A DNA stretch of 64,000 nucleotides from assembly GCA_903813345.2 (NCBI GenBank), contig CAIIXF020000010.1, positions 6,503,169 to 6,567,168 of the forward strand. The letters run 5' to 3'. The position numbers were made by a program, and so were the translations under genes. How positions within the stretch are numbered: the first letter of the stretch is position 1; every line of letters starts with the position of its first letter. The DNA is from Owenia fusiformis (taxonomy: Eukaryota > Annelida > Polychaeta > Sabellida > Oweniidae). The notes beneath the pieces were generated by a model. It worked only from the letters and a program-made list of their open reading frames with translations. It was not told the DNA's origin and made no database searches. This document shows positions 4,364 to 50,273 of this stretch, one piece after another.

Positions 4364-7300
4364 CTATCTGTAATTTTCAGTGTTCATTTCATGAATGCCC
4401 AGGACATCATCATCTTCCCTTGTTCTCACATAGTGTTCAATTTTCATATTGGGATCATCATCTGGGGCATATACATTCTGAAATACAAACATCAAACAAT
4501 CATAATATGTTGGGAATACATAACTCAAAATAATGGAATACACAAATTGTGTTGGAGTCCACACATCAACCAATCAAAATGGCTGTTCTATACATGAAAT
4601 ACAGAAATCAACCAATACCATGTTACAATATAGAATTCAACCAATCTCTATGTTGAAATACATATTGCGATCCGTTGCTATTACATAATGAAATACCAGG
4701 CAAGCCTTTTATGAATTGATTCATTTTTGAGTGTCCCCTGCACTAACCTGTACATAGCAATTACCAGCAGGGTCATCTAACACAATCGTAATGTCTAACA
4801 TCTCCCCAGCAGCTATCTGAAACAAAATAACATCCATAAAACTATTATACAATTATTAAGACAAGGCACATGACGTGAATGAGATCATGTGTGCGATTTT
4901 GGAGAAAATATGATGAGCGGTTTTCCTGAAATGGCGATAACAAGATTTATCAAAAAACCTTCAATATGGCCGCCAGAAAACGAGATGGCCATCCAAAAGT
5001 AAATCGCGATTACAAGATTTATCGAAAAAAAAACTTCAAAATGGCCACCAGAAAATAAGATGGCCATCCAAAAGTTAATCAGCTCTAGAATTTAATATTC
5101 TCTATTATGTGTGCAAAGTTGGAGAAAATCCGATGAGTGGTTTCCCTGAAATCGCAATGACAAAAAAGCAGGAAGATCACGCCATCATCATGATGATATA
5201 TCCCACCAATGTTGTGATAATAACTGTCTCAATATACAAAATTATTCGTTTATCAGTGAGTTTATTTTCTTAAGATTACAGAAACTGTGTGCACAAAATC
5301 ACCTCTAGGCAAAACAGGTATAAATGGCAAACAGATATAAAAGCTGTTTTTGACTCATATCATTCATTGACATACCTTTTTTCCAAATCTCACTCCCCAG
5401 AAAAGTTAATACTTTATTTTTGGGAAATCACAGATTTTAATATTGTTCTATTGATTTTACATAACAATTATATAACTATACCTTTGTTAGCGAGTCAACA
5501 ATATTCCCCAAGGGGCTGTCATTAGGGTTTGCACTATCCCCCGTCAAGAATGGGTTTGCCTGCAACAACTGAAATTAAACAAATACGTATTCCTAAATTT
5601 GTTTAAAGTTTTGTCTCAAATCAAAATACCACAATTAAGTTGCCAAGTGAAGTACTCATCATCTCCAGAAGAGGTCTCTCAGTCAATAGGGGGGAGGGGG
5701 CAATAGGACTCCTTTCACTCACACTGAACAGATAATTTATGTTAAGAGAAAGAAGCTCTAAACAAATTAAATTGCTTTTGGAAAAAAAAATGGCCCAAAA
5801 TATATGGTTCTGAATAAATTAATTTCCCATACTAGCCTGTCAGCTTCTTCAAAGTTCAAACGAAAATATTATGTAGTAGGACTTTAAAGTGAATCCCCAT
5901 TATGACCCTAAATGCAAAATCAAGAAACAACAGAGCCATATACCATACTATAAGTGTAAAGACTGCATGCCAAATTCCAGTCAAGCATACCTGATCTTTC
6001 ATGTCAAGTAAAAGTCCTTCCAAAGTCGTAAACTTTCCCCCAAGTGTACCACTCTGCATCTCAAAGTCAAGATGTGGAATACAAAAAGCTGCAGTGTCAG
6101 ACTGGAAGAACAAGATTAGATGAAGATTAGATTAGATGAAGATAAGAACAACTGGGAGCTGCACATGAAAAATTACATGCAGTCTGTTATTTTATCAAAA
6201 CAGGCAAAATGAGAAAAGCACATTGAGAAAAAAAGGTGAGTGATATGCGATATTATTCAAAATCAAAATATAATTGTATCTGGTCACAATAATGATTTAT
6301 AAATTTTGTTAAAATAAAGCCTCACCTTTAAAATGTCCCTGGCAAGGTCTGAAGAATCTGTTAACTTGAGCGTGATCCTCGTTCCTTTGGGCGCAATCCC
6401 AGCGCCACCTTTCACCTCATTATCTCTATGCCCACATGCTTCACACACTGTTGCCATGATGACAACTTCTTTGAAAAATGGAATATCTTAATAATGTAAA
6501 GGAATATATTTATATTAGATACTTCTTTTACCATGGTTATTGGTCTTTTGAAGTGCTGCACAATTTCTACTTGAAGGAAAGTACTGAAATTCATACCTCA
6601 TATTAACTGTACAAATAACATGTGTAGTATCTAATATTTTGTCAAATTTTGATCGTCGCCACTGTTGGTCAATGTAGTTTAAAATTATCATTGAATTTGT
6701 ACCTCTATAATAAAGATCCTACTTGCTGTCTCATACAGTTTTTCATATTAGAATTATTGACATTCAATTTTCAAGGATACCGACAACTTTCATATTGCTT
6801 TCACACGGACTATTACACGCTGGGCAGTTGACATGAAATGTTATAACTTCGTCTTTGCCAATATTTCCTGCACCATCGCTAGGCTCTGCTTCACCCTCCT
6901 TCTTAGGCTCATCTGGTGTTTCTGAGGTTTTATTCGGAGTTTCTTCACTCTCAGGAGCTTCCTTTTCATTTTGTCCAGCATCTTGTTCTTTTTCTAAAGC
7001 TTCTTCTGACTGAAAATACAGTATAGGGAGAGAGGAATCCTTCACTTCCTTAAAAGAGAGTTTCATCTGATTACTAGACTCTTATAACAATTTCAAATTT
7101 GAATAGAAACTGTACAATCAATAGTCAATGAGTAACACTCAAGGGATGTATTCAAATGTACAGAGATGCTTATGTTTAAATACTGATGGAACAGATTGAG
7201 ATGTATGAGATGTACAAAGCGACTATATATTCTGATTATAATTAGACAGTAAGAATCGTATATTCTGTGTGTTTTCAAAAAGAGTTTGTAATAATTTCTT

Positions 7301-10300
7301 AAGCCATTACTTACCTGTAAGCCTAGCTGTACATCCTGCTGAGTGGTCCTTGTAAAGTGTTTACCCGTCATCTGGGGGTCCGCATCAGGGGCACATGTGA
7401 CAACAGTTAAAGAACAATACAGTCAAACATGTGTATGTGAACATATCTCTATGGTGATACCTCAAAATGTGAACAAAAGAACCTTCCTGGTTTAGCTTTT
7501 TAGGCTTTTAGAGATAATATGATGAGTTTAACGGAGAGATTTATGTTCATGGTCATTTAGATTGAAATCTCTTCATATGAAAACTATTTTTATTTATTAC
7601 CCTCAAATCTATTAAATCACTTTGCAATTTCTAAGGCAATTTCATTAACTCTGTTTTTATGATTGGATTTACTGAATTTGAAAAGGATATGGATTTTCTA
7701 CAAAGGTGTTCCCTGATGGATCATCAAATACCTGGAAGTAAATAAAGCAAAGGAAAACATTTGAGAAAATCACCCAGGGAAAATCGAATCCCCTGTAAAA
7801 TAGCAATGGTATCTACACTAGTGTATTGATATAATGATAAACTTCATTGTGAGTACTTCCAAAGCGAACACTTCTCATTCATCTTAAGTATTCTTTGTCA
7901 TTTACAGGAGGCTGTTTATTAAAAGAGTGGGCTACAAATGATATCATTATACATTGTTTTGCCTTCAGGGATATTGCCATAGTAACAGTATAGACAATGA
8001 CTATTCATGTTTTAGAGAAACAGCTTTTTGGATGACTGTATACAGCTGAGTGTATTATATACTCACGATATCAAATGGCTGACTAAGTTCAATAAGTCCT
8101 TTTAGTTTTCCAATAAAGTCTTCAATTTGTTCTGCTAATGTAGGATTAAGAGCCTGAAATGGGAATTAAAACATACATTGGGATTATACTTGTGGATATT
8201 ATCAACACCTAGCGAGACCTCTTGGGTATTAGTACTAGTTTAGAAGGCTTATATTTTACGATATTGACTTGAGCAATAGTGGTGGGCCATACTTTTCTAA
8301 ACACTGAAAAGTTGACAAGAACAACCAGACATGTGTGTTTGTCTCACACATGTGTGTTTGTCCAAAATATTTTTACTTCAAAGTATAGCCGATGACAGGT
8401 AAAATGGCTGTCTACCTATTTCTATACTGCTACACATAAGTATATGCAGTGGTCTCCCTAGCATTAAAGCAAGTGGGCGCAGCACCCACCTGAGATTTTG
8501 AAAATAATTGCTCGCACCCACCTGAAAATCCATTTGCACCCACTTGAAAATGAGAAAAATCATGAAAAATTTGCATATTTTGACCAATTTTGGTCTGAAT
8601 TGTGAAAATGAGAATTGTGCACCCACCTGAGACAAAATCCTGGGGAGATCAGTGATCAATGGTAGACATTGCTAACAACACTGAATACACCTCATGCTGC
8701 ACAGGTAAACTCAATTTTATATTTTTACAAACACTGATCAAGACTGATAATTATGATCACCATACTGTAGGCCATGATCGTTTTCTGACCATATGGGTAC
8801 ATACCACATAGGGGTGTATGTCACATAGGGGTATAGATGACTTAGTGGTAATTAGCCCTAATTAGAAACTGTCCTTTTCCATGTAATTTATTTATAGTGG
8901 TTAAACAAATACATGCAAAGTACTGATAACAACAAAAGGAGATGATTTAGATAATTTTTAATTTAGTATGAAGGCTTTGGGTATCTGCAATCAGAATACA
9001 AACTGACAAAGATACGTGGGTTGAATCAATTAAACTTTTTTTGAACTACAGTATAAGGGAATGTATCACTATTTTGATTTGCAAAAAAAATAAACAAAAA
9101 AATTCAGGTCATATGTTTTGCTTAGAATGAGTCTCTCCATCCCTCAAAATGAATGCAGTGAACATCATATTTATTGTAGGTAAATCTCATGCCTCAGTCA
9201 CATTTGATCAATCAATGGCAACTTTACCGTGGCTGTAGCTTCCAGAAATCAGGAGAAATATGCAGTATTAAATATAGGGACAAGCACTACGATGTACATT
9301 TTCTATATCAATTTTGTGAACCTGTGACTACCATATGCCTGTCATATAGAGTAAATGTGACCGAGGCTTTGATAAACCTTGGATTTTATAAAAAATGATG
9401 TCAAACAAAAAATGTTAAGGGGTCCCTTACCCATAACATGCTGATAAAAAATTGATATTGTGATACATCCCCTTTTAAAGCAACACAACAGGGTACTCTG
9501 TCAGATGCAATTAATCATTTTTGGCTATAGGGGGTTAATGAATTGAACTTTATGGTCATGCCCATTTAACTCCATGTCTCTTCAAAATTTAACTCTTACA
9601 TCTATTTTTGTCAAGTAGAGTATATCAATCAGAGGTAACCAATTTTATGAGAATCCTCCACAGCAGATTGTTAAGGAGTTTTCATAAAGTTTAAGTGTTG
9701 ACATTATGTCCAGTTCATTCTAGTCTTTTCTATTGTGCGAATCTCCTTGAAAGACTTTTAGAGACACCAAGATGCTGATCATTGTGCTATGCAAATGCTC
9801 ACCATTTTATTACTGCTATTATTATTCAAACACTCACCTTTCTTACTGGTTGGTCTTGACCGAGTTCATCAATAGAGTTCTGTATGAGTCCTTCTACAGT
9901 TGTAAGTCCTGCAAAATCAACATGCAAGTTAATCATATTATTTCATTTCAAATAATGAAGCATTTACACTGTGATTATGACATCATTATGTACACATCTA
10001 TCATGCAGATGCAATATTCAACCTATCACATCTGGATTGTTTAATTCTACATGCATTGTCATTTTTACAACTTATAATTCATATTCACAAAATATAGTCA
10101 CAAGAGATAACAAAGACTTAGACCCAAGACCATAATCCATTTTAAGAGGGTCTAAAAATAAGCGATTTAAGCCTATTAAAGGTCCCGATAGACCCATGAT
10201 ATATTACTGAAATAAAATATTTAGAGTGTAACAATACAAAAGTAAGACATTCAAAAATGTGCATACTTCCTTTGCCTGGAGGAATCTGGAAGTCCAAACT

Positions 10301-14142: not shown

Positions 14143-17100
14143 ATGGGGAACGTTCACGCAGCAGAAGGAGTCCCTGCCCCGCCATTGGGATCAGTTCCTG
14201 CTCCGACTCCCCCAGGCCAGCAAGCAGGCCAATCTACACAAGCACCTCCACCCCCTCAACCCTCAGAACCAGAATCAGATCATCCAGGAACCTTTGAAGA
14301 TCTTCATCAAAGATGTAAAGGTAGTTACACAAATGCTCCATTTTCAGGCCTGTCAACTGTCCCGCAATTAGCATATGTGTCACGCATTTGCTGAAGGATT
14401 TGAAGTCACGCCAGTTTTTTTGCGCGACAAAAAATGTCACGCAAATACACACTTTTTACTTGGTAATTGTCTTGAGCAAAAATATTTCTGTAGAAAAATC
14501 TCCAAAAATGTTTGCCGATACAGTAAAAATACGAACGCCAAAAAAAACGTACGCATTCCGTTTGTACTTTTCACGCTATTCACGTATATGTCACGCATTC
14601 CTTTTGAAATTTTAATTAACTACCCCCCTCCTCCTGATTTGTCCCAAACTGCAGAACATCATGAGTTAGTCATATAAATCTGACCGTTGTATGCTGTTCT
14701 TCGATGTTCCTGGTTCTTATTTAGATATTTATTTTTTATCATTTTCTTAGCATACAAGGTCATAGATATAATAGCTAACAAATTGCGGGAAACACTTTCC
14801 TGGCCTGTCTTGCTAACCATACCAACAAAAGTCACACAAATTATGGATTTATTATTTTGCTCCAACATCAAAGTGTTAAATCTTACCTTAGACATGTAAA
14901 ACGCTTGATAATTGACGTAATATAATCAATTGAAGTATATTTTCATTATCGCCCGCCATGTTGCTAAATGTTGTTTCCGGTAGTCTAAATGTAAACATGT
15001 ATCGAAACGGAATCATAATTATTTATTACACAGAGATTCAAAAGCCGTTCTCTTATACTACTCACTTTTCTCATTTCTGAAACAATAATTTTTCCATGTT
15101 ACTTCCCTTCTTAACGACACTCCTTTTCTTCCATCTGAATCTTGGCTTGAGGTAATTTCATCTGGAATACTGTGAACTCAATCAGATAAATACACCCTAT
15201 GCAGACAGAGCCTGTGGGAAATATTGGGTGCGGCGCAAATGAGCAGAGGGTGCGAAGCTAACGGTCATTTTTGAATTTAAAATTGGGATATTTCTGAAAC
15301 TAAGCCGTTTTGGGACTGCAAATATACCAAGATATGTGTATTTGACACCAAATATCAATAAAATTGTGAAAATAGTAGTGCAATTCATTTTATAGCGACG
15401 CAGTATGCCTTAAACATTTCCCAGACCTATATATTTTGAGACTATCCTTTTAATACTGCGTCCCCAGCATTCATGAAAAATGGTGTTCAAGATACACTAC
15501 CCATGCAAATTATTTTTGCATCTTGGAAGCCAGGCAGTATCTGTGTGATTTTATAAAAATTCGGAAATGTTCTTCAGATATGAGCCCCCTCTAAATATTG
15601 GGTGCGGAGGTACGTTTATGGACCGACTCGGTTCCTTGCATGATTGATCGATATTGCATGATTTCATCAGGATTTCGTCTAAAATTAAAACAAAATGGCG
15701 ATATTCGAAAACTGGACGAAATGTCGTTAATGTCTGATATTAGTAACTGGCTGTAAATTCTAAGTTAGCGATCCAGAAAATGTGAACTAATACATTGATC
15801 ACTTCATGTGTGTTTTGGAAATTTTGGTGAGAAAATAAGACCAAAACTCGCAATTCAAAACGTGATGTAGAAAAATGGCGGACATTTGATTTCAAGTTTT
15901 ATGATTATGACATGACCCGTTATACATGCAGGAATTTATCTTTGGACGAATGCCATGATACAGTGGCCTTAGAAGAAGTTTAATTGGTATATATTTAGAC
16001 AATATCCTCTAGTCTGAAATTTTTTTGAAATTTGGAATGAAAATATTCAGACTATAGCCCATATATGTTAAAATTTGGGATTAAAAATTATTTGTTTACA
16101 TAGAAAGTGGCATTCAAAATGGCCAATTGGGTAAATTAATTTGCATATTTGTTACTTCCCCTAGCTTTATTTCTATTTGACAATATGCTGTGTTACATTT
16201 TATAGCATTAATTGTACCTTACTACTTAATGGAATTGTTATAATGCTATTTTTTGGAAATGAAGTTAACTAAAATTGATAGTAGAATTATCAGGAAAAAT
16301 TACATTGAGATTTTAAAGATTTTTTGCCAATAATAGCAAGATATTTAATCCTACTGCAAAAGTTACATATTATTTTGATATCATTTCAGGTGTGTTCCCA
16401 ATGCCATTTGAAGGTGCCAAATTACTAATCAATAAGGGATTAAGTAACCATTTCCAGATCAGCCACACACTAACCATGAGTTCTATCATGCCTTCAGGCT
16501 ATAGATTTGGAGCCACTTATGTTGGCTCAACACAGTACGGCCCTATGGAGGTAAGAAAGCAGTAATGAATCCATGCTTATAAATCACATTTTGTTTTCCA
16601 AATTCTTTTAAAACTTCAAATTAAGACTCATGCTCACAGGGAAATTGGGTACCTCATATTATGTAACTTACCAATCAGTGAGAGGAAGACAAGATTGCAA
16701 CACAAGTCTAATGATGTATTCTGGTCCCTCTTATTTGTCTTTTGCGAGACTTTTGAAAGATTAAGACAACGGGGGTCGGGTGCAGTTATCACAATGCAAA
16801 TGATGATGTCAGAGAAAAAATTATTTTGAAAGAATGGCAGAATAGACCACATGTTTATACATGAACTACACTTCTGCCATCTTTATATCAACCTAAATCA
16901 TATGACACGGACAAACTGAGATCTTGCTCAGTTATGATTTTGACACCATTAGAAAAAGTTTTAGAATTTCGGTGTGTAAACATATCATTCTAAACAAAAT
17001 CTGCTACACTGACAACATTAAAGAATATTTTTGTATAATTTAACAGAATTCAGATTGATTCCAAAAGGTTATATAATGACTAATGAGTGGTGATGTGATA

Positions 17101-20100
17101 TCTCTTTTCTGATGCAAGTTGACCATTTGATGAGCAATATGGTCCCATTTAGATTCATAAATCACAATTATCTTAATTGGTCATTCTTATTTTACCACTC
17201 TCATTTTAACTGCAGCCCTACTAAGTAATTCAGCTTTTCAATTTATGTTCATTTCATTTTGAATATGTTTTGTATTTTCAAGGCGTTCCCTGTTGTCATA
17301 GGAGACATTGACCCAAGTGGCAACCTGAATGCAAATATCATCCACCAGTTCTCTTCCAACACACGAACAAAACTAGTATCTCAGGTAAGATCATTGTTTT
17401 GCTATTGTTCATCATAAAGTGCTTATTCTCCAGGGGTTTCCTAGTATTTCTCACAACAGGCTAAATAAATGAAAGCAACGGGCAAAATTATTGGAAATCA
17501 TAAAGGAGCACGAGTTGTTTGTAGAATGAATCTTGGGAGCTTTTTCATGCTAGTGTTTTTCATCTAAAAAACATTGATACACTTTAAAACATTTCTATTG
17601 TAGTGTTTTATAGGCTGTAGCATCACAGTGGAAATTTTAACATGGAGTTGTAAATTAAATAAGGTATTATACGGTTTTATGTATAACCCTTGATTAACAT
17701 CAAAATACACATTTTCAGATCCAAGGTGGCAAATGGGCAGCGACCCAGTTCTCAGGAGATTACAAAGGCGAAGATTTCACAGCATCATTAACGCTAGGCA
17801 ACATAGATGTGCTCAATGAATCAGGTATGTACTGGAATAAAGATTAACAAGTAGTAAAAGAAACCGTCAAAGATGTGTTGATGATTTAATTGAGGTAGTT
17901 TGTAGATATAGGGAATGCCTCCGTCCGTCTGTCCATACGTACATCCATCCGTCCATCTGTCCAGGCAATAACTCAAATACTGTTAGCCTGATTTCGTTCC
18001 TATTTTGTACACATATGCTCTATGGGAGCAAAAGTAGTGGAGCGATTTTGTTCATATTTGGTATGTGAATACTATAAGCATAGCACGCTGTCTGATGACA
18101 CTTTTGGTAGTAGGCAGCCATTTTTAAACGTTTTTTTTACTATAACTCGAAAAGTAGTAGAGCGATTTTGTTCATATTTGATATGTGAATACTATAAGCA
18201 TGGCACACTGTCTAATAATATTTTAATAAATAAAGTTAGTCCGGTCTGGCCGGAAAGACCTCAATGATCCCGGCATAATTTTGAAATATTTAGCTGGACA
18301 CACAGACAGATTGAATGTATCAGAAAAACGAACAAAACAGGTTTGCGAATATGAGCTAATGTTAAATTTTCATTGACTCGAAAATAAGTTTTGGCGTCTC
18401 AATTGATTCATCAAAATACCGAACGCAACAGGTCTTGTGTAGGTGCCCCGTGTTAAATTTCCATTGAAACAAAAATAATTGTGGTGTCTCATGGGTGAAA
18501 TATCAAAAATTACGAAAGTTGGCCACTTTTAAAATGATGGCCATTTATTATATGCTATTTCACGATTTTTACTAGATACTTTGTTTCTAAAAATGCCAAC
18601 CATGGCTGTTCGATGGGATTTGCTGCGCTTTGGCGTTGCTGTTGTCTAGTTAAATGCTGGTATCTGTTTTAGGTGTGGTGGTCGGTCAGTATTTACAAAA
18701 CATCACTAAAAACCTAGCATTAGGGACAGAGATGCTCTACCAGTATGGCCCCAATGTTCCTGGAGGAGAGATGGCCATGTTGACATTTGCAGGCAGATAC
18801 ACTACACCACAGTGGCAGATCAGTGGCAATGTGGTGCCAGCTGCTGGAGGACTACATACATGCTATTATCATAAAGTAAGTGTTATTATCATAAAGTAAG
18901 TGTTATTATCATAAAGTAAGTGTTATTATCATGAAGACAAGTGTACATATAGTGTATATATACATATTTTCAGATAAATCAAATGATATGACTCACCACA
19001 TGTACATATTTCCAGATAACAATGTGACTAATCACATTTACAAATAACATATTTCCAGACAAATGATATGACTAACCAAATGTACATATTTCCAGACAAA
19101 TGATATGACTAACCACATGTACATATTTCCAGATAACAATGTGACTAATCACATTTACAAATAACATATTTCCAGAAAAATGATGCACATATTTCCAGAC
19201 AAATGATATGACTAACCAAATGTACATATTTCCAGACAAATGATATGACTAACCACATGTACATATTTCCAGATAACAATGTGACTAATCACATTTACAA
19301 ATAACATATTTCCAGAAAAATGATGCACATATTTCCAGACAAATGATATGACTAACCACATGTATATATTTACAGATAAATGATATGGACTAACTACATT
19401 TACAAATTACATATTTCCAGAAAAATGATGCACACATTTCCAGACAAATGATATGACAAACCACATGTATACATCTCCAGATTATTTACCTCCTGACTAC
19501 ATGTACATATTTTCTGATAAATTATATGACTAACCACATGTACATATTTTTCCAGATAAATGACACGGCTCAAGTTGGAGTTGAACTTGAAGGAAGTTTA
19601 AGAACACAAGAATGTACAACATCTATTGGGTACCAGATTGACATGCCTAGCGCCAATGTAGTATTTAGAGGTGAGTGGTGTTGGATTGTAGATGCATGGA
19701 TATTTGGAAGTAATGAATGGCATATCCTCAGTTATATAATCCATTTTTATGTGGAACACACTTGTAGACTTCATTTCAGAACCAGGCCATGTTTTCTATT
19801 CATGTATGTCTGAAAGGATATGAATTTGTAAATTATTTTCATTAAAATTGAAAAAATCCAAGTAATCATTGCATGTCTAAGTTGACCCATTTCTGAACTC
19901 CTGATTAGAATAATTTGGAATAATTCATATCTGTACTTTAATTATGATGCCTATTTGGCATTTGATGAAAAGGCTGTCGCAAAACGTCTATTATATTATA
20001 ATTTCAATATTTGATAAGTTTTAATGATGAGAGGTATGTGAGCCTCGATTGGATTAGTTTCGTCAAGATTTAAACAATGATGTTTTTACCCGACACCTAT

Positions 20101-20261
20101 AACTGTTCTGACTATTTTCAGGTCAATTGGACACTAATTGGTGTATAGGGGCAGTATTAGAGAAAAAGTTAATGCCCCTTCCATTCACATTAGCACTAAG
20201 CGGTATGGCTAACCATGTAAAAGGACAGTATAGATTTGGAATGGGACTGATCGTGGGATAA
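14143..20261 (+). CDS. TOMM40: TOM40, mitochondrial outer-membrane import channel
   Basis: Seven exons: 14143-14320, 16390-16550, 17283-17384, 17719-17824, 18673-18875, 19556-19670, 20122-20261. All have canonical GT-AG junctions and the phases close to 334 aa (human 361). Tom40 is the beta-barrel pore through which the TOM complex imports nearly all nuclear-encoded mitochondrial proteins. The N-terminus begins MGNVHAAEG and continues into a Pro/Gln-rich leader, like vertebrate TOMM40. Barrel landmarks follow: GTFEDLHQRCK, INKGLSNHFQISHT, YRFGATYVG, AFPVVIGDIDPSGNLNA, FTASLTLGN, LHTCYYHK, VGVELEGS, TNWCIGAVLEKKL and the terminal FGMGLIVG. The last motif contains the aromatic-x-x-hydrophobic beta-signal type recognised by SAM. 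The start is the only ATG that gives the conserved MGNV leader. Intron 5 carries duplicated splice sites (see findings). Confidence 0.98.
15192..15625. mobile_element. Solo arm of the 849-bp foldback element (TOMM40 intron 1)
   Basis: It matches the left arm of the element at 24563-25411 from the terminal ACACCCTATGCAGACAGAG through AATATTGGGTGCGG and into the loop (TACGTTTATGGA), then stops. The second arm is missing. Similarity is high, with scattered substitutions. Confidence 0.85.
17900..18652. repeat. Dispersed repeat in TOMM40 intron 4 (family also at 23040-24250)
   Basis: It shares phrases with 23040-24250: GGCAATAACTCAAATAC, TGGAGCGATTTTG-like segments, AATGGCCGCCAT-type motifs, and a terminal GTTCGATGGGATTTGCT...TTGGCGTTGCTGTT.TCTAGTT. 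Inside is a direct duplication of about 125 bp (GTAGTGGAGCGATTTTGTTC at about 18033 and the near-identical AGTAGTAGAGCGATTTTGTTC at about 18153). No ORF of substance. Confidence 0.65.
18860..19555 (+). repeat. TOMM40 intron 5: tandem-duplicated donor and acceptor segments
   Basis: At the left edge a 20-bp unit (TTATTATCATAAAGTAAGTG) that includes the exon 5 donor is repeated three times, giving GTAAG donors at 18876, 18896 and 18916, with a fourth decayed copy at about 18936. From about 18965 to 19555 the intron consists of units like ACATGTACATATTTCCAG followed by AYAAATGATATGACTAACC. The last of these carries the real exon 6 acceptor (TTTTTCCAG at 19547-19555). Confidence 0.9.
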
Positions 20262-24562: not shown

Positions 24563-25411
24563 CACCCTATGCAGACAGAGCCTGTGGGAAATATTGGGTG
24601 CGGAGCAAATGAGCGGAGGGTGCGGAGCTAACGGTTATTTTTGAATTTAAATTTGGGATATTTCTGAAACTAAGCCGTTTTGGGACTTCAAATATACCAA
24701 GATATGTGTAATTGACACCAAATATCAATACAATTGTGAAAATAGTAGCGCAATTCATTCTATAGCGACGCAATGTGCCTTAAACCTTTCCCAGACCTAT
24801 ATATTTTGAAATTATCCTTTTAATACTGAGTCCCCAGCATTCATAAAAAATGGTGTTCAAGGTGCACTATCTATACAAATTATTTTTGCATCTTGGAAGC
24901 CAGGCAGTATCTGTGTGATTTTATAAAAATTCGGAAATGTTCTTCAGATATGAGCCCCTCTAAATATTGGGTGCGGAGCAGCTCCATAAACGTAGCTCCG
25001 CACCCAATATTTAGAGGGGCTCATATCTGAAGAACATTTCCGAATTTTTATAAAATCACACAGATACTGCCTGGCTTCCAAGATGCAAAAATAATTTGCA
25101 TGGGTAGTGTATCTTGAACACCATTTTTTATGAATGCTGGGGACGCAGTATTAAAAGGATAGTCTCAAAATATATAGGTCTGGGAAATGTTTAAGGCATA
25201 CTGCGTCGCTATAAAATGAATTGCACTACTATTTTCACAATTTTATTGATATTTGGTGTCAAATACACATATCTTGGTATATTTGAAGTCCCAAAACGGC
25301 TTAGTTTCAGAAATATCCCAATTTTAAATTCAAAAATGACCGTTAGCTCCGCACCCTCCGCTCATTTGCGCCGCACCCAATATTTCCCACAGGCTCTGTC
25401 TGCATAGGGTG
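24563..25411. mobile_element. 849-bp foldback (palindromic) element with 5-bp TSD
   Basis: Two arms of about 415-420 bp are near-perfect reverse complements, separated by only a few bases around 24980-24992. Ends are CACCCTATGCAGACAGAGCC and its complement. The 5-mer AATAA directly flanks both sides (24558-24562 and 25412-25416), which supports transposition of the whole palindrome as a unit. It encodes no protein of its own; the open frames in it are mirror shadows of each other. Confidence 0.92.
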
Positions 25412-33100: not shown

Positions 33101-36100
33101 ACTTGAAATAATTCTCCATTTGGATTTATATTGGAAGCATTTGTTCACCTTGTGTTAGCATTTGAATAATTCCCATCCTGGTTTAACATGCTGAGTTAAC
33201 TATTCCATTTCATTGAATTCATTCTTCGCTCTACTTAAAAGTTATAACTTCTCTACTGTATTATTTCTTGAACGTTTTGCTCCAACTATTTTATATTAAT
33301 AAATTTTCTATATTTTTCACTGCAGTAGCCTCTTTAATACTTGAGTACTTCATACACCTTAACATTTTAACACACTAGCAATTCATACACTATCACCCAT
33401 GTTAACACTTAAATGATCCATTCATGTTGTGTTAGCACTTGAATTATTCATTCACCTTTTGTTAACACTTTTTAGATAACACATTTACTTAAGTAATTCA
33501 TTCACTCTCACTGTCAACACTTCAATGATCCATTTATCCTGTGTTAACATTTGAATGATCCATTCACCCTGTGTTAACACTTGAATGCTCCATTCATCCT
33601 GTGTAAACACTTGAATGCTCCATTCATCCTGTATAAACACTTGAATGATCCATTCACCCTGTGTTAACACTTGAATGCTCCATTCATCCTGTATAAACAC
33701 TTGAATGATCCATTCACCCTGTGTTAACACTTGAATGCTCCATTCATCCTGTGTTAACACTTGAATGATCCATTCACCCTGTGTTAACACTTAAATGCTC
33801 CATTCATCCTGTATAAACACTTGAATGATCCATTCACCCTGTGTTAACACTTGAATGCTCCATTCATCCTGTGTTAACACTTGAATGATCCATTCACCCT
33901 GTGTTAACACTTGAATGCTCCATTCATCCTGTATAAACACTTAAATGATCCATTCACCCTGTGTTAACACTTGAATGATCCATTCACCATGTGTTAACAC
34001 TTGAATGATCCATTCATCCTGTGCTAACACTTGAATGATCCATTCATCCTGTTCAAACACTTGAATGATCCATTTATCCTGTGTTAACACTTGAATGCTC
34101 CATTCATCCTGTGTTAACACTTGAATGATCCATTCATCCTGTGTTAACACTTAAATGATCCATTCGCCCATTCATCCTGTATAAACACTTGAATGATCCA
34201 TTCACCCTGTGTTAACACTTGAATGCTCCATTCATCCTGTGTTAACACTTGAATGATCCATTCACCCTGTGTTAACACTTGAATGCTCCATTCATCCTGT
34301 ATAAACACTTGAATGATCCATTCACCCTGTGTTAACACTTGAATGATCCATTCACCCTGTGTTAACACTTGAATGATCCATTCATCCTGTGCTAACACTT
34401 GAATGATCCATTCATCCTGTGTAAACACTTGAATGATCCATTCATCCTGTGTTAACACTTGAATGCTCCATTCATCCTGTGTTAACACTTGAATGCTCCA
34501 TTCATCCTATGCTAACACTTGAATGGTTCATTTACTTAAATAATTCACTCACCTTTTCCTAGTGTTAATAGTTGAATGATCATTTCATTCTGTACTACCA
34601 CTTGAACACAGTGTTAACACTTAAATTTTAACACTGAATGATCCACTCTCCCTGTGTTAACACTTAAATGGTTCATTTACTTCAATAATTCACTCGCCTT
34701 CTCTTATTAATAGTTGAAGGATCATTTCATTCTGTATTAACACTTGAACATAATGTTAAAACTTGAATGTTAACACTGAATGATCCACTCGCCCTGTGTT
34801 AACACTTAAATGATTCATTTGCCCTGATTTAACACTTGAATAATTCAAGAGCCCTGTGTTTCAGCAAAAGTTAACTTTGCTGATAAGGTTCAAAACATAG
34901 AAGAAGATGATGATGACGATGATGTCTTTATAAGTGTAGATGATGAGACCCCGGGCGATGTAGTTTCTGCAAAGAGGCGCTCTCAATCTCTTGGTGCTCT
35001 ACCCAAAGATGAACCTAAAAGCCCCCGAAAGGTAACAGTATTCACTGTTCAGTGTACAGTGTTCAGCAATTTATCATTTGATGAATTAATTTGTGTTGAC
35101 CTTTATCGCAAAGCCATCATCTGAAGGACTACGTTATTTTAAAGCATAATAAACTGGATTGTTGTTTCCTTTCTACGCTTAAATAATTAATGTAATTTTT
35201 TTTAGAGTACATTTCTTGCCAATTTAGTACAAAGTTATTTTCATCCTATTTTTTTGTACTTAATTCCAGTTGCTTACTAGTAATTAAACTACACCACTCA
35301 GAATGTAAGCTGTCTGATGGACACAGTTCATTCTTCAGTGTTCTTTGAAAATCAGTTATTCTCAGTGGCTAATAAGATGTTCAATGAATGTATTTAATAT
35401 TTTTTATGATCAGGGGTAGAGCTAAGGTTCTGAGAGCAGCTGGTCAAAATGGCATTACAGACCGGTTGCCATGTTATTTCCCTAAAAATCAGGTGGTCTC
35501 TATCAAAAGTAACCTGTCAAATGACAATTGGACCAGCCCCTTAGCTCAAGCCCTGTTTTTTATCACCTGAGTCACAAATAAATTTTCATGCATGTTATTT
35601 TCAATTCAGATAAAAGACAAGGACCACATAAGACGTCCTATGAACGCATTCATGATCTTCAGTAAGCGCCATAGAGCCAAGGTCCATGAACGGAACCCCA
35701 ATCAGGATAACCGAACTGTCAGCAAGATATTGGGAGAATGGTGGTATGCTCTGGGGGCTAAGGAAAAACAGGAGTACCATGACTTGGCATTCCAGGTAAA
35801 CATCTTTTGATATCTTTCATTCACTCCAAGGGGTGTATTGCATTATAAATATTCTGCTATTCATTATTATACAACTCACATGCAACTTTGATTTTGAGTG
35901 GGCCAAAAAGCTGATATTTTATTTTTCTGTTGACATTTACAAATTTGGCAATTAAACCAACATGCCAGTCACCTTTTATTGATTATTTCACCTATAATTT
36001 CTAGTTAAAAGAGGCTCACTTCAAAGCTCACCCAGAGTGGAAGTGGTGTTCTAAAGACCGCAAGAAATCTGCAGGAAGTACCAGTAGCGCCCCAAGAAGA

Positions 36101-39100
36101 CGTCTCAGCTCGTCTGATGAACTGGCAGCAGCTGCTATCGAAGGTATTGAGAAAAAAATAAACGTAAAATGCTCCAGATTGAAAATACTTAAAGGATGTG
36201 AGACCATAATAATATATTATTCAAGAAATTGTATTATATACAGGGCGTTCAGTAAGTAAAGCTAATTTTGCTCTCAAACTTTTATTTTTTGTCATTTATC
36301 TTTCAAATTTTCAGTGAAGAAGCATTTGACATGTTTCTAACTACCCTGAAAAATTAAATAAGATATGATGAATAATAGCAAAACAATGGTTGTCATAGTA
36401 ACATGAATACAGGTTCTGCGGAGCAATTTCTTACTTTAATAAAAAATGTTATAATGCAATGAAATTGATTAAGATTAATGCTGCATATGTCTTTGTTTGC
36501 TATGGCTGAAAGTCACGACAAACATAACAACAACATACACAAATATGATACCATGGCAACAGCAGTCTATGACATCACAGACAGATGATACAACAGATGG
36601 AATGATCCAGAATGATCCATCAGACACTGCTCCATGACATCATCAAAATCATGGCTGCCAGGATTGCCAATGGAAGCAAAATTAACAATGACCCCTGTTA
36701 CACAGGCCAGTTGAAATGCTTCGTTACGAAGCAATTTGACAAAAAGCTTCGTAACGAAGCAATTTTGGGCCAGTGTAACACCTCCGCCTTCGTTAGAAAA
36801 GCTTAGTTGATAACGAAGCAATTGAGTAGAAAATTCAACGAAGGTTAGGTCCCAACGAAGCTTTTTTGGCCTGTGTAACAGGTAGCTTCGTTAGAAATTG
36901 CTTAGTTGGCGGTTTGCGCATGCGCGTAACAAAGAGCACATTCATCATTTTGTATTAAATGAGAGGAATTGCGAGGAAAGAACATGTTTTTAAGTACGTA
37001 TCATTATAATGCCACGTTTTGATTAAAATAATTACCTATTTGCGTCACTGATTGACGCTAACTCAAGCCCTAAACGCCACGTACAAATGTGATTTATCGT
37101 CTTTCGTAGCATTTCATTCGATTCCCTGCCTTTCCTCGTATTGATATGACAAAAAGTATTAAATCTAAAAAACTCAGGTTCACCGTATATATGTATACGG
37201 TAGCTTTGAAACGTTTATCTGATCTATTTGAGAATAAACCTAGAATATTTAAATGTCCCTCTTTCGGAAAACTCCGTCTCAAGTGTGGAAGGGTAAACTT
37301 TTGAAATCACATAAGATATGCTTACTAAATAGAAAGTTGTGGCATACATGTTTAATATTAATTTTTTCTTGCGCCTTGAATAATTATACCTTGAATGTAA
37401 TTCTAAAGGTGTTAATACCATGATACTGATACAATTGCTTCCCGGTGAATCACATCAGGTGAATTTAGCCGATTTGATTGATTCGAAAATGTCTCTCTCA
37501 CGCCCGGTGATCGTAGAATTGGGACGGAGGGGGGGGGGGGAGCAGGCAATTTCTGCTAGAAATTTCAACAAATCTGGAAGATTTATTTTTTAAAGAAGTA
37601 GTTTACTATTGAATTGCTAAATAAATAGGCTCACGGTATTGTAAAATATGTTAGGTATTCTAGGATTTTTTTTCAACCGATACTCTATTAGGGTATAAGA
37701 TCTATTAAAAAAGGCGCAACGCACCAACGTGCAAAAGTCAATGTTGTTGCTATAAATGAAGCAACAATGGTGTACATGACCTGTAATAAATACTTGTAAG
37801 TGACATTATCGTCACAAAATTAATGTTATTGCTGACTTTGTAAAATAAGTTTCCATAGGTGAAATAAAAAATAATCGAAAATAATTTTGGGACGGAGGGG
37901 GGGAGCAATATGTATTAAGACATGATACATATTGCTCCCCCCCTCCGTCCCATAATTATTTTCGATTATTTTTTGAATTTAAACTTCATGTTTAAATATA
38001 TTGAATTAATTACGTTTCAAAACTTCCGTATACAAATACGGTAAAACCACCTGCAGACAAGGAACGGTGGCCAAAATTGTTTCGTGTCGACAGATATTTG
38101 CCACAGAGAGGCTGCATGTTTTAGGCCAGCCCCAAACACTATTGATGTGTCGTAAAACGATGCTTACAACTGATATTCAAGTTTCTTCCTATTTGCGCCA
38201 TTTTCGAATTCAACGGACGGCTGATGGATTAACATACTAATTTATGTCAAACTCACTCAAATATGCATGGAATATTGGCGAAACGGGTAATATTCATATT
38301 AAGATGAATTGGTCATGAAATAGTAGTTAAACCACCAGCCGAACACCAAGATATTTTAGTAATGGCTACACTATTTGAAATATACTGAGAAGTCCATTTG
38401 GAAATTGAACGTTTTTATACGATATTACATACTAGTCCTCTGTATAAACCCCAAATCCAATTCCTCCTAGTAATTAACATAGGCCTATTTTTATTCCATA
38501 TGTTTTCCAAAGGAAGTGATTGAAAATAAAATTGAATATTTTTGAGTTTCATCAATTGTTTATATCAAAAGAATAAAGATATTAATCATAATAAGTGGGT
38601 GGGGCAGATGAGTAATGCGCACGCGCAACGAAGCATTTTAAGTGCAGTGTAACACCAAATAATTGCTTCGTTAGGGTTGGATAAAGCCAGTGTGGACACA
38701 ATTTTGTCGCTAACCTTCGTTACAAAAATGCTTCGTTAGACTCAACCAAGCAGTGTAACAGGTACCAATGAAATGAAACAACAATTGAGAAGTAGCATCA
38801 GATACAATGTGTTGCTAGGGAAATCCAAGCAGGATACCATTAGGGATATCCAAAAAGCATATGGGGACAGTGTGCCTAAGTACACAATCTACAAATGGTA
38901 TCAGAAATTCCAAAAGGGGAGAAATACAACAAGTGATGAGCCAAGGTCAGGGAGGCCGAAACTTCTAACCAAAGAGGCTAACATGAATCATTTGAGGCAA
39001 TTGTTAGATGAAGACCGCAGTATAACTGTAAGGGAACTCTCAGAACTAACCAATATCAGCCTAGGATGGGTACATTATCTGATTCACAATTCTCTAAATA

Positions 39101-42100
39101 TGTCCTTGGTGTCTGCGAAATGGGTACCAAATAATCTGACCGACGAGCAGCGTAGAAATCGTCTGGAAGATTCAGTTGCATTCTTGCGCCGTTAACTTAA
39201 ACATCAAATGATCAAATTCACATTTCATTTTCTGGTGCTGCGGCGCTATCTTGTGAATGCGATTCGCAAGAAGAGGCCCCATAGGACTCTCAACTCCTAC
39301 ATATTCCATCAAGATAATGCGCCATCGCATAGGTCGCAAATGGTGCAGGATACTATCCAGAAAACGCTGGAGATGGAGGTTCGAGGCCAGTCAGCGTATT
39401 CTCCTGACAAGGCACCATGCGATTTTGGGGTATTTTCATGTTTGAAAAATGATCTGCGTGGTAAGATCCACGCAAATATCCATGAGCTTCAGAATGCTGT
39501 TCAACGTTCACTGACAAAGAACTTTCCAGATGGTTTCCACAGGATATATCAGAAGTGGATAGAACGACATCAGCTGTGTGTGAAAGCTAAGGGGAACTAC
39601 TTTGAACATGAAATAGAATGCTAACTTGAAAGTAGAAATGTGGAGTAGCCACAGAACTAGGGTTGAAATATAGACAGGACAGAAACTAACGTTAACAAAA
39701 TCTACTATGCTGTGAACTTATAAAATTGCTCCGCAGAACCCGTATTCGCGTTACTATGACAACGACCATTTTGCTGTTATTCATTACATCTTGATCATTT
39801 TTTCAGGATAGTTAGAAAAGTGTCTGATGCTTCTCCACTGAAAATTTGAACGATGATAGACAAGAAATAAAAGTTTGAGAGCAAAATTAGCTTTACTTAC
39901 TGAACACCCTGTACATGTTTTGTGTTTTGTTTACTACCAATCAAGGTTATTAATTACTACGTGCCTTTGGGAATACATGTACATTTATACAGTATTTATG
40001 GTCATTTACACATCTGATCATTGAAAATAAGCACTCACACAAGTACACAAACTTTGTACATCACCTCGATAATGAGAAAAAATGTTTGTTATGCTCCTGT
40101 ATATTTGTTTATTTTTTTTAATGCACTTTGAAAAGTGATGTATTGTCATCATTTTGTGAGCGGGTGCCACATAAATTTTGTCATCAAAATTCTAGGAAAA
40201 CAGCATATCTGTTCAAATCAAAGTTAGGCACGGGACAGTTTTGGGCATGCTGAGTAAATTACATGGCTGCCATTTTGGTCTTCAAAAGTGCAATATTTAT
40301 CTCTGTGTGTCTTAATTTACAGGTAACCTGAACCAGTTGCCATCAGTCACCGACACAATTGATGATGATGATGTGTTTGAGGCTGCCAAGAAAATTCCCA
40401 ATATTCCTGTTGCATCAAGCTCTGGTCTTGTGGCTCCCCCTGGTGTAGGTGATAACACACAAGCCTTGGCAGAACTCAAGCAGGTTAAGGCATTTTGTGT
40501 TCGTATATCATTCCTCATAGTAATAATATTTTTATAAGTTTTGAGGTCAGTAAGCATACTTTTTAAGGGATTGAAGTCCCTCTTCCTGAGCATAATTGAA
40601 CTATCAATAAAACAAAACATGCTGGTATGGGATACAATACAGTTTTTTTTAAAGTTTCATATTGGATTGTATTTCGCAATGAAAGGTTGTATTGATGGAA
40701 TAAACTGGGTCCTCTGTTTTCCTTATGATACATCCCATATTCAAAATCCCCATAGTAAACCCTTGTATATTTAATGTTGTAGATGTGCTCAAGTCGTGCC
40801 CCTTACCAGCCTGCAGGTAAAGCTTTAGTCACAGTAGGAGAAGCCAGCCAAGCAGGCCAGGATCAAGCAAGGGCAAAAGCTGCTAAGACTGCTACTGGAG
40901 AAGAGAGTGACGATGAGGATAGAATGATCATTGATGAGAAACAAGGTAACGAATGAAACTCTACATAACAATCATCCTCTTAAGCAGGTATCCAGAATCC
41001 GCGCCTCCTTCTTCCCCCTGCTATAACCAATTTGGAAGCGCCCAATTAAACTGAATCACGTGATCTAATTATGCACAATGACTTATACATGACTTCTGTA
41101 GCAGTGTTGTGACAGCCAATCAGATTGCGAGTTCTTAATCGGGGAAATGCTAACTGCTTATCGCAGGGGGTAAAAAGAAAGAATATATTCTGGATTTTGA
41201 AGCCCTGTGATAGGAGGATGCATAACAATCATGTTGTATTCTTATTGGTCCTGATACATATTATATTAGACTGATAAAGACCAATAGATACATTGGTTGG
41301 AAATTATTTTGTACTATTCAATAAATCATGGATCGTATCAGAAATTTTTGACCATATATTTCCTTGCTTTCTCACTAAAAATGGTTTGAAATCAAAGCAT
41401 TCTTACAAGTTTTTGGCATTTTACTATATCAGCTATTTAATTTAGAAACTTCAAATTTTACAATTCAGTTTGGCAGATTTCTGCATTGTTCTGTTAAGAC
41501 AACATTCATAAGTATCAAAATTTTGAACTTCATTTTGCCATCAATTTACACAAAGCCATGATTTGACAACTCCATGCTTTTGTTAATTTTAGGAAAAGAA
41601 CAATTTACTGTGGATTTATCTTTAATTAGAAATAGACTTCAAATCACCTCCCTAAAATAAAGCAGACAACACACCTACTCGACCTTCTCTGACTCACCCT
41701 ACAGTTTACAATATATGTTGCACCATTATCCTTTTAAAAATTTGGTGAACATGCACCCAATACACAAGTACACATTTTTATTAAATATAATTTGTGTAGA
41801 TCGGAAAGAAGTTCTTAGTCTGGTGCAATTTTAAACATGGACCAAATAGTTGTTGACTGAATATAAATTGTTGGTCTGGAGCAATTTTAGGCAAAAATTC
41901 TGTGACAGATTTACATGTCACTCTTTGTCTTAAAGGAGAATTTATTTATAATCGAAATATATGTTATTGGTAATTAATGCTTGTTAATTGCAGTGGATGA
42001 TGAGGTGGCACAGGCTGACCAAACTGATGGTATAGACCTCAACTGCAAAGAACATGTCTCTGACAGTGAGACAGACAGCCAATCAGAGGACGAGGTAATC

Positions 42101-48100: not shown

Positions 48101-50273
48101 AGCTATATTCCAGTCAATAATTCCAAGTTCTCATCAGATTTTAATCTTTCAAACTCTTAAGAATGCATGAATTTAAAGATTACTTAATTTGACTCCGGTG
48201 TAAAGAATGCATGAATTTAAAGATTACTTAATTTGACTCAGGTGATGGCTCAGAAGAAGACTTGGGCTCTCCCCGGACCCCAAAGACACCAGCCTCTCCT
48301 GGGGCTTTTTCCTCTCTTCGGAGAATTCTGGAACAGAGACGTACACTTGTCCTACAATTGTTCGAGACAGATGGATTTTTTCCTTCAGGTGAGTAGTCTT
48401 TACATGAACAAATAATCAATGGGTTATATCATTGTGTACCACAGCCCAAATCAGAGGCAACCAACATTTTCAGAACGACCTTGGTTAGGCTAAAACCTCC
48501 TGTTCAAGAATCTCTATTGCAACCAAACAAAATTTTAAATACATATTCCCACTACCCAGTAACATAATTTTGCTGGTTGAGAATCTGTCAAAGAATTTTG
48601 CTAGATAATTAGGATTTCACAATATCCCCATGCTAATAGCACCCTCTGACTCATCTCCAACATATTCATATTATATGAATCAACTCATAATTATATGGAT
48701 TGCAGTCATTTGACATTATTTTTAGTCAACTATGAGGTATGTGCAATTTGCTTAAAGGAAACCATACAATCATTTTATGCATATATGGAATTGTTGTTTC
48801 CAGCCTAGGGAACCATACAATCATTTTATGCATATATGGAATTGTTGTTTCCAGCCTTGGGAACCATACAATCATTTTATGCATATATGGAATTGTTGTC
48901 TCCAGCCTAGGGAACCATACAATCATTTCATGCATATATGGAATTGTTGTTTCCAGCCTAGGGAACCATACAATCATTTTATGCATATATGGAATTGTTG
49001 TTTCCAGCCTAGGGAACCATACAATTATTTTATGCATATATGGAATTGTTGTTTCCAGCCTAGGGAACCATACAATCATTTTATGCATATATGGAATTGT
49101 TGTCTTCAGCCTAGGGAACCATACAATCATTTCATGCATATATGGAATTGTTGTTTCCAGCCTAGGGAACCATACAATCATTTCATGCGTATATGGAATT
49201 GTTGTTTCCAACCTAGGGAACCATATAATCATTTTATGCTTATATGCCATTGTTGTTTTTAGCCACCTCAACAGCAGCGTTCCAGGAGAAATACCACGAG
49301 ATCTTTCCCACTAAGAACCTGCTACAGTTGAAAATTCGAGAGGTGAGAAAGTAAAAAGGTTAAATCTTTCAAAATAGTTGGGGTGGGTTCAATATTCATA
49401 TATATTGTATTAGTTAATGTAACCTGAATATAAAAATGAGTAGAAATATTTGAAAATGTTTTTAATTGTATGTTTCATTGAATTTGATTAAAAAGATTGT
49501 TTTAAAAAACTGGAGATTCTTGGAATTTAGACCTACATGTTTAAATTACATTACAAATTGAATTACAATAGGTGTTAATTATTAGAGAATGAAGTTTTAT
49601 TCTAAAACTTTCACAAATAATCCCTCTGGTGTATTTTATCAATGCAGGTACATTTTGTTGCATGATTTTACATTTATTTAACAGACTTGAAAAACTTTCA
49701 TTACGTTTGTGGGAAATTGGGTCAAATTATTCCTTGGGTTCTTTAAAAGCCTTTCAGTCAGGTGGAGCTGAAGCCATTGCAAATGGGTATTCCGCAATTG
49801 CTCGACTGCTTCAGTCGAAATTCGAGTATACTTGTACTCATGAAGGATATTGTATCTAAAACGAAAATTGCGTATCGTCACTATCATGTAACTTCAATTT
49901 AATACAAATTCTTTGTAGTGAATTGATTCATTTTGCTTCAAATCTTTAAAGATTACTTTACCTTCAGGTGAGACAGAAAATGATGGCAGAGAGCTCCACC
50001 CCTGGGCCAGAAGAGGGGGAGGAAGACCAGGCATCTAGTCAACGTTCCCCTGCAGTCGTGGGGACTAGTAGTGCAGTTAATATGCCAAGTGGGAACAGTC
50101 ATTCCTTGCTTGGCCCATCAAGTGGCAGTGGAGCCCTTAGGGGAACTGGCCACTTGGTGTCACCACTTGTCAGAGGCCAGGGTAACCAAGGTAACCCAAC
50201 GTCCAGTGGCCGACAAACATTTACACCACGTGCCTCTTCGACATCTGAACTAGCAGCTGTTCACAGGAAATAA
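28066..50273 (+). CDS. CIC: Capicua transcriptional repressor, long (CIC-L-type) form
   Basis: Nineteen coding exons: 28066-30186 (acceptor at 28037), 32023-32311, 32513-32668, 34865-35031, 35610-35795, 36005-36143, 40323-40483, 40783-40945, 41994-42667, 42896-43980, 44718-44848, 45162-45778, 46602-46712, 47065-47198, 47493-47635, 47870-48088, 48242-48388, 49263-49342, 49968-50273. Total 7029 nt, 2342 aa. CIC is an HMG-box DNA-binding repressor downstream of RTK/Ras/ERK signalling; it binds TGAATGAA-type sites and in mammals partners ATXN1. Domains in order: Tudor-like CIC N-terminal domain (about residues 170-300), KYKKGDVV...[11 protein letters not shown] block (about 425-470), ataxin-1-binding-like [26 protein letters not shown] box, RRRLSSSDE (14-3-3/RSK-like site), [12 protein letters not shown], Gln-rich regions, C1 region and an NLS (YRRKKK). 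ATG 28066 is the first in-frame Met after an upstream stop. Confidence 0.97.
30883..31737. mobile_element. 855-bp foldback element in a CIC intron
   Basis: Arms of about 405 bp (30883-31289 and 31330-31737) are reverse complements with only a few mismatches, and the loop is about 40 bp. Termini are TCACCYTTGGTATACGCAG and complement, and CAT flanks both ends, a possible 3-bp TSD. It sits in the sense intron between CIC coding exons 1 and 2. The surrounding DNA is itself a diverged tandem duplication (GATAAAGCACCACATAT at about 30676 and 30825). Confidence 0.92.
32764..32962. mobile_element. Short MITE-like repeat, copy 2 (family of 8447-8654)
   Basis: Same layout as copy 1: left AGTGATCTCCCCAGCATTAA, internal CACCCACCTGAAAA and CACCCACTTGAAAA blocks, right ATCCTGGGGAGA. 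More diverged in the centre. It lies in the CIC intron after the exon at 32668. Confidence 0.7.
33490..34864. repeat. 30-bp minisatellite filling a CIC intron, with higher-order alternation
   Basis: About 33-35 copies of a 30-bp unit (TGTTAACACTTGAATGATCC then ATTCACCC) run from about 33500 to 34530, then decay into longer diverged units up to the exon at 34865. Two variants alternate over long stretches (GATCCATTCACCCT and GCTCCATTCATCCT; TGTTAACAC and TATAAACAC), giving a 60-bp higher-order period. The unit length is a multiple of 3, so minus-strand reading frames stay open; they are not genes. Confidence 0.95.
35610..36143 (+). CDS. CIC: CIC HMG-box exons
   Basis: Exons 35610-35795 and 36005-36143 encode [19 protein letters not shown], then the helix 2/3 signature [15 protein letters not shown] and the helix 3 end [26 protein letters not shown]. 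This is the Capicua subgroup of sequence-specific HMG boxes. RRRLSSSDE follows directly. In human CIC the equivalent position is an RSK-phosphorylated 14-3-3 site; the conservation here is of the basic-x-x-Ser pattern only. Confidence 0.97.
36694..38762. mobile_element. 2.07-kb non-autonomous DNA transposon nested in the mariner
   Basis: Ends are CCTGTTACAC and GTGTAACAGG. Subterminal regions on both sides are crowded with CTTCGTTA and TAACGAAG motifs in both orientations, like the subterminal repeats of hAT-type elements. A CGCATGCGCGTAAC stretch sits near the left end and GCGCACGCGCAAC near the right. No transposase ORF was found. TSD is unclear (ACC near both ends), so the superfamily is not assigned. 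Confidence 0.8.
37862..37975. repeat. Perfect short palindrome with G-run arms
   Basis: Arms of about 50 bp read AATAATCGAAAATAAT, GGGACGGAGG, a run of G, GCAATATGTAT and the exact complement, with a loop of a few bases at about 37918-37925. A related TTGGGACGGAGG followed by about 12 G occurs once more at about 37518. Confidence 0.85.
38773..39624 (+). pseudogene. Mariner transposase remnant
   Basis: The first part (38773-39195) has the paired helix-turn-helix DNA-binding domain with [18 protein letters not shown] and the WVPxxLTxEQ linker signature. The second part, in the same frame (39208-39624), has the second catalytic Asp in HQDNAPSH and the third in YSPDKAPCD, 35 residues apart. The block of about 120-140 residues with the first catalytic Asp (TGDE motif) is deleted, and a stop sits at the junction (39193-39195). 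It cannot encode an active enzyme. Confidence 0.92.
42896..45778 (+). CDS. CIC: CIC glutamine-rich exons
   Basis: Exons 42896-43980, 44718-44848 and 45162-45778 encode low-complexity Gln/Pro/Thr-rich sequence with mixed CAA/CAG runs, plus short stretches shared with vertebrate CIC (for example [13 protein letters not shown]). A basic segment [19 protein letters not shown] lies near the end. The Gln runs begin immediately at the acceptors or within a few codons. No folded domain is recognised. Confidence 0.9.
47493..50273 (+). CDS. CIC: CIC C-terminal (C1) exons
   Basis: Exons 47493-47635, 47870-48088, 48242-48388, 49263-49342 and 49968-50273. They encode [17 protein letters not shown], the basic [49 protein letters not shown] and [13 protein letters not shown]. 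The C1 segment cooperates with the HMG box in octameric-site DNA binding in CIC. The DNA-contacting C1 core spans the junctions of the three exons at 48242, 49263 and 49968. TAA stop at 50271-50273. Confidence 0.96.
48159..48244 (+). repeat. Direct duplication of the CIC intron 17 3' splice-site region
   Basis: A 43-bp segment (AAGAATGCATGAATTTAAAG, then ATTACTTAATTTGACTC) occurs twice back to back. The downstream copy ends CTCAG/GTG, the real acceptor at 48241. The upstream copy reads CTCCGGTG, so its AG is lost. Confidence 0.93.
48757..49262 (+). repeat. 51-bp minisatellite at the 3' end of CIC intron 18
   Basis: About ten units of GGAACCATACAATCATTTTA, TGCATATATGG, AATTGTTGTTTCCAGCCTAG. 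Eight copies keep the acceptor-like TTGTTGTYTYCAG/CC, one has AA instead of AG, and the last diverged unit (TTGTTGTTTTTAG/CC) is the actual acceptor of the exon at 49263. The unit is 17 codons long, so several frames remain open on both strands; they are not genes. Confidence 0.96.

Follow-up and report, generated by a model that had tools for sequence, protein, structure and literature searches.

The closest systems described so far are the "mirages" of amphioxus, minisatellites situated at 5' and 3' boundaries in which many units carry the AG or GT signal and for which unit lengths of 10–160 bp are reported (PMC3087553; PMC3902484). The BflGb6 mirage is described as homogenized in its interior with the boundary unit exempt (PMC3087553; PMC3902484), and according to the amphioxus globin paper mirages seem not to interfere with regular splicing (PMC3087553). 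In human, the 25-bp units of a VNTR in ABCA7 intron 18 carry a donor signal; retention of one unit or use of a neighbouring cryptic site is reported to lead to a frameshift, and VNTR length is reported to affect splicing, which shows that the signals of an intronic repeat can be used (PMC5954066). Studies of AG exclusion deal with AGs located between the branch point and the acceptor (PMC7317903), and a 27-bp minisatellite is reported in intron 3 of an abalone gene, the available part of that paper mentioning no splice boundary (PMC6905558). Among the literature matches listed, which include few subscription papers and are in part accessible only as excerpts, we came upon no boundary minisatellite other than those of lancelets, which does not prove that none exists.

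We analyzed a window of 64,000 nucleotides of Owenia fusiformis in which a 51-bp tandem array ends on the acceptor of CIC intron 17, in the middle of the sequence coding for C1 (Table 1). An earlier note on this DNA had called the array a natural series of nearly identical acceptors ending in the real one, a description that our results support; the intron, numbered 18 there, is intron 17 counting the exons visible in the window. By analogy of structure, the array is of a known kind, that of the amphioxus mirages, and the match is close. Like them, it carries the splice signal (CAG) in 8 of the 9 upstream units, its first nine units are alike and the boundary unit is divergent, and this tenth unit spans the junction, marginally on the exon side, with the true acceptor and two exon bases. 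Two further arrays, in TOMM40 intron 5, clearly span boundaries. Unlike mirages, the CIC unit includes just two exon bases. The ABCA7 VNTR is likewise an intronic minisatellite whose units carry a splice signal, but its signal is a donor and the accessible part of the report mentions no exon boundary within the unit. The CIC decoys differ from the AGs of exclusion studies in lying outside the interval between branch point and acceptor, provided that the branch point is in unit 10. The window also differs from amphioxus in base composition, with a G+C content of 36.0 % compared to roughly 41 %.

The CIC gene and its intron 17 array

The CIC model comprises 19 exons on the plus strand (28038-50273) in one open frame throughout, the only stops being one at the very start, before the first ATG, and the final stop codon. 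Exons 17 to 19 jointly encode C1. Joined exons 17 and 18 align to PDB 7m5w "Protein capicua homolog", which we take to be the human protein, with E=3.3e-22 and no gap at the junction, the sole gap lying near the end of the alignment. The acceptor preceding 49263 is thus real at the level of protein conservation, and the alignment supports the last acceptor of the array as the one used for this exon, as had been proposed. The exon had also been said to carry the C1 core; this is correct for the second half of C1 and not for the whole, which spans three exons. Pfam finds an HMG box and DUF4819 in CIC (1020 N-terminal residues submitted), Porin_3 in TOMM40 and ZPR1 domains in ZPR1, and supports all three gene names. 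Within CIC intron 6, two open frames at 38740-39624 resemble a transposase of the mariner type.

Tandem Repeats Finder (TRF) places the array at 48756-49258 with a period of 51, 9.9 copies and 95 % matches, and cutting every 51 bp from 48757 gives ten units ending at 49266, so the ten units previously counted are borne out. Units 1 to 9 show 0-3 differences each from their own consensus and are pairwise identical at 46-51 of 51 positions. Unit 10 shows 8 differences from that consensus and shares 41-43 of 51 positions with each of the others, which indicates that it is homologous to the array, again as claimed. Its changes fall at unit positions 11, 25, 32 and 33, in the tract (44-45) and in the exon (50-51), and upstream of the tract they include three purine-to-pyrimidine changes. 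The CAG acceptor is kept in all upstream units except unit 9, which reads CAA (49209-49211), and the true acceptor is the TTTTTAG ending at 49262; the unit alignment and the capicua alignment together confirm the reported arrangement of eight CAG units, one unit without AG and a last unit holding the true site. On a reading by consensus only, the candidate branch points of unit 10 are TTTAT (−27) and CTTAT (−21), and on motifs alone the true unit is distinguished from the decoys by the additional branch-point-like CTTAT and by more pyrimidines.

Units 3 and 7 have one variant in common, and unit 8 is identical to unit 4. The spacing is four units in each pair and suggests the trace of a 204-bp block exchange. 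A dispersed element was considered as the source of the array and rejected: no other copy of the unit was found in the window, allowing up to 17 mismatches in 51, and there is thus no sign of such an element. A 26-base piece has no exact match in viral contigs.

Table 1 Coordinates of the CIC exons and boundary arrays in the window
Feature	Position	Strand	Basis or remark
CIC exon 17, C1 first half	48242..48388	+	gene model, protein alignment
CIC exon 18, C1 second half	49263..49342	+	gene model, protein alignment
CIC exon 19, last coding exon	49968..50273	+	gene model
Nine upstream 51-bp units, CIC intron 17	48757..49215	+	TRF, unit alignment, matrix scores
Ends of CAG decoys	48803, 48854, 48905, 48956, 49007, 49058, 49109, 49160	+	
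Tenth unit: candidate branch points, tract, true AG (49261-49262), first two exon bases	49216..49264	+	
Duplicated acceptor, CIC intron 16	48159..48244	+	two copies, 3 nt of exon 17 included
TOMM40 intron 5 donor array, 20 bp, TATTATCATAAA/GTAAGTGT	18864..18936	+	three copies intact, a fourth degenerate
TOMM40 intron 5 acceptor array	18960..19563	+	16 upstream copies: 15 CAG, one CTG adjoining the true site
30-bp array, CIC intron 3	33400..34864	+	ends 4 nt before intron end

Reading frames and scores of the decoys

Joining exon 17 to the CAG decoys gives GCC TAG, an immediate stop, in 7 of 8 cases, in agreement with the earlier reading that most decoys do so in the phase used; the unit 2 decoy (exon start 48855) leads to a stop 56 nt past the junction. 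All eight stops precede the last junction by 177-534 nt, a distance at which decay is expected by the 50-55 nt rule. The array also contains eight CCTAG sites, which would shift the reading frame and bring a stop 28 nt ahead of the last junction, and whose matrix scores are low (−1.35 to 1.69).

These scores come from an acceptor matrix built on the 32 other acceptors of the window (36 minus those of CIC introns 16 and 17, TOMM40 intron 5 and one AT-AC intron), a small matrix that ignores branch points. The true site scores 4.61 compared to 5.37-7.40 for the eight CAG decoys, six of which reach 7.40 and the remaining two 5.37 and 5.83. The longer T run, previously held to be the main distinction of the real site, is therefore rejected as the reason for its use: every decoy outscores it, and unit 10 differs outside the T run too. 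The advantage of the true site must lie elsewhere, the candidates being exon context, the CTTAT at −21, the three purine-to-pyrimidine changes or weaker folding. Scores of at least 7 are found for 24 of 1049 AGs in introns other than the three array introns. Two AGs of CIC intron 17 outside the array (ends 48705 and 48725) also score above 7, nearly level with the better decoys, so use does not follow from a high score.

Other arrays at splice junctions

The window holds several boundary arrays, that of CIC intron 17 among them. At CIC intron 16, the two copies of the acceptor (48159-48200 and 48203-48244) are identical at 41 of 42 nt, the single mismatch changing the upstream AG to CG. The acceptor tract of CIC intron 3 looks like a modified partial unit of the adjacent 30-bp array.

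TOMM40, modelled as 7 exons in one open frame (14145-20258) that ends before the stop codon, has an array at each end of intron 5. The donor array begins 12 nt inside exon 5, and its 20-bp unit consists of 12 exon bases, encoding YYHK, followed by GTAAGTGT. YYHK at the end of exon 5 is part of a conserved stretch (CYYQK in TOM40 chain 9etm_A, to which the exon 5-6 junction aligns without gap); the copies in this array are thus derived from the exon boundary. In the acceptor array, the true AG is at 19554-19555, the repeat extends about 8 nt into exon 6 and many copies contain TGACTAAC. The 15 CAG decoys score 4.93-7.55 compared to 7.26 for the true site, and 14 of them lead to a premature stop. 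Since many copies match the true site from the branch-point motif through tract and AG to most of the first exon bases, position and context are likely to decide acceptor choice in TOMM40. The nearest intact decoy (−75; 19481-19555) would add 25 codons, keeping the frame and introducing no stop.

To estimate how arrays are placed, we merged 57 TRF rows by hand into 32 spans and compared the 9 arrays lying mostly inside the 36 introns to random placement, in a post hoc test. Four of the nine cross a junction, against 0.76 expected (P=0.0025), a figure for which the end of the CIC intron 17 array was set at 49264; with the TRF end of 49258 and a tolerance of 0, three of nine cross. This choice affects the crossing figure only. 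Five arrays lie within 5 nt of a junction (1.05 expected, P=0.0008) and six within 12 nt (1.46 expected, P=0.00025). Counted by position instead, acceptors show no enrichment in duplicated sequence: a score of at least 20 is found for 3 of 36 acceptors, for 1 of 36 donors and for 12.6 % of 2192 intronic control windows. Taken together, the excess per array and the lack of positional enrichment suggest no avoidance of splice sites by arrays and perhaps a preference for them. In ZPR1 intron 9, a 16-bp repeat of 2.2 copies (6112-6147) comes to within 10 nt of the acceptor end.

Three acceptor arrays have units bearing an AG, and in each of them the copy adjacent to the true acceptor has lost it, through a different base change each time: CAA in CIC intron 17 (one copy among 9 upstream), CTG in TOMM40 intron 5 (1 of 16) and CCG in CIC intron 16 (the only copy). 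The array of CIC intron 3 was excluded from this count, its units having no acceptor of the sort found in the other three. Combined by Fisher's method, the three cases give P=0.014 on the assumption that the AG could have been lost from any copy and P=0.054 if edge copies are more mutable, assuming 12 changes for the TOMM40 edge copy. The rule was formulated post hoc, edge units diverge anyway, and the TOMM40 donor array does not conform to it, its degenerate copy being the most distant one. We consider nearest-copy AG loss a new but weak pattern.

The window contains further features outside the arrays. ZPR1 is modelled on the minus strand as 13 exons (11560-4370) in one open frame ending before the stop codon. 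Its intron 6 (7397-7690, minus) resembles a U12-type AT-AC intron, with donor ATATCCTTT, branch-like TTCTTTAAC and a terminal AC, and its intron 8 (6487-6780, minus) a U12-type GT-AG intron, with GTATCCTT and, near the end, TTCCTTTAC. Of the 35 real acceptors for which a score was computed, that of intron 8 ranks lowest. The open frames at 15197-15409, 24567-24779 and 25195-25407, which occupy both strands and closely resemble one another, are probably copies of a dispersed element, and an open frame at 1740-2075 resembles the end of a DEG/ENaC-type channel.

Origin of the array and choice of acceptor

We consider it likely that the CIC intron 17 array is a boundary minisatellite that grew through unequal exchange, with decoys that are mostly unused. 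A tandem duplication of the 3' end of the intron, comprising a candidate branch point, the pyrimidine tract, the AG and the first two bases of exon 18, would have come first, and unequal exchange would have multiplied and homogenized the copies. The copy touching the exon would have been held by selection and still be the acceptor, leaving the upstream copies as relics that still resemble acceptors. Use of a decoy would place a stop ahead of the second half of C1, with decay of the message expected. Decoys are most likely used rarely, since only the true site has its own exon and a nearby donor, and the closest decoy has no AG. We infer the direction of duplication, the low decoy use, the cause of the preference and the decay; for the direction, the CIC unit holds only CC from the exon, which may match by chance.

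The order of events could be the reverse, a minisatellite having first formed in intronic sequence and then extended or moved until one of its units became the acceptor. The array of CIC intron 3, which stops 4 nt short of the intron end next to a tract resembling a modified unit, is consistent with such a course, as are the mere two exon bases of the CIC intron 17 unit. The TOMM40 units, however, hold exon sequence from both sides of the intron, including conserved codons, and arrays cross junctions more often than random placement would give; we therefore regard this order as unlikely. Quite unlikely in our view is that RNA folding hides the decoys, upstream units pairing with themselves and the last unit having lost its hairpin, a reading that would account for the acceptor preference and is compatible with a boundary minisatellite. 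Folded singly, the nine upstream units reach −9.1 to −11.8 kcal/mol and unit 10 only −5.7; the array RNA is more stable than its shuffles (z=−4.5, a value inflated by repetition of one unit), and the last AG is the most accessible (0.086 compared to 0.000-0.054 for the nine others). Yet shuffling the consensus unit gives sequences of comparable stability (z=−0.68). Among random variants with six changes, 21 % fold as weakly as unit 10; its weaker folding is not significant against such substitutions, and we place no weight on sequestering hairpins.

The decoys might also act as regulated poison acceptors, used in some conditions and lowering CIC output through stops and decay. All eight CAG decoys do lead to a stop well ahead of the last junction, and all eight outscore the true site. 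Such stops nevertheless come free, given a unit length divisible by three and a single TAG, and selection on the decoy AGs as a class is not visible in units 1 to 9 (1 change in 18 AG bases compared to 11 in 459 bases). Amphioxus globin mirages, moreover, are described as seeming not to interfere with regular splicing (PMC3087553), and we consider such regulation highly unlikely. Short tandem arrays are often misassembled, so that the length or composition of the array could be wrong. An artefact of this kind is hardly plausible here, several units having private variants and the flanking coding exons being intact.

The arrays provide a ready-made series of nearly identical acceptors and donors in two conserved genes. 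They could reveal how an acceptor is chosen by means other than its motif, such as exon context, distance, branch point or folding. It is conceivable, if somewhat unlikely, that in a genome outside the lancelets junctions recurrently become minisatellites and that selection silences the nearest AG each time, leaving distant copies intact. Silencing of the nearest decoy, if general, would measure the proximity at which a rival acceptor harms an exon, and both the density of boundary arrays and the condition of the decoy closest to the true site merit further attention. The arrays also bear on the creation of new introns by boundary duplication, as proposed for amphioxus globins.
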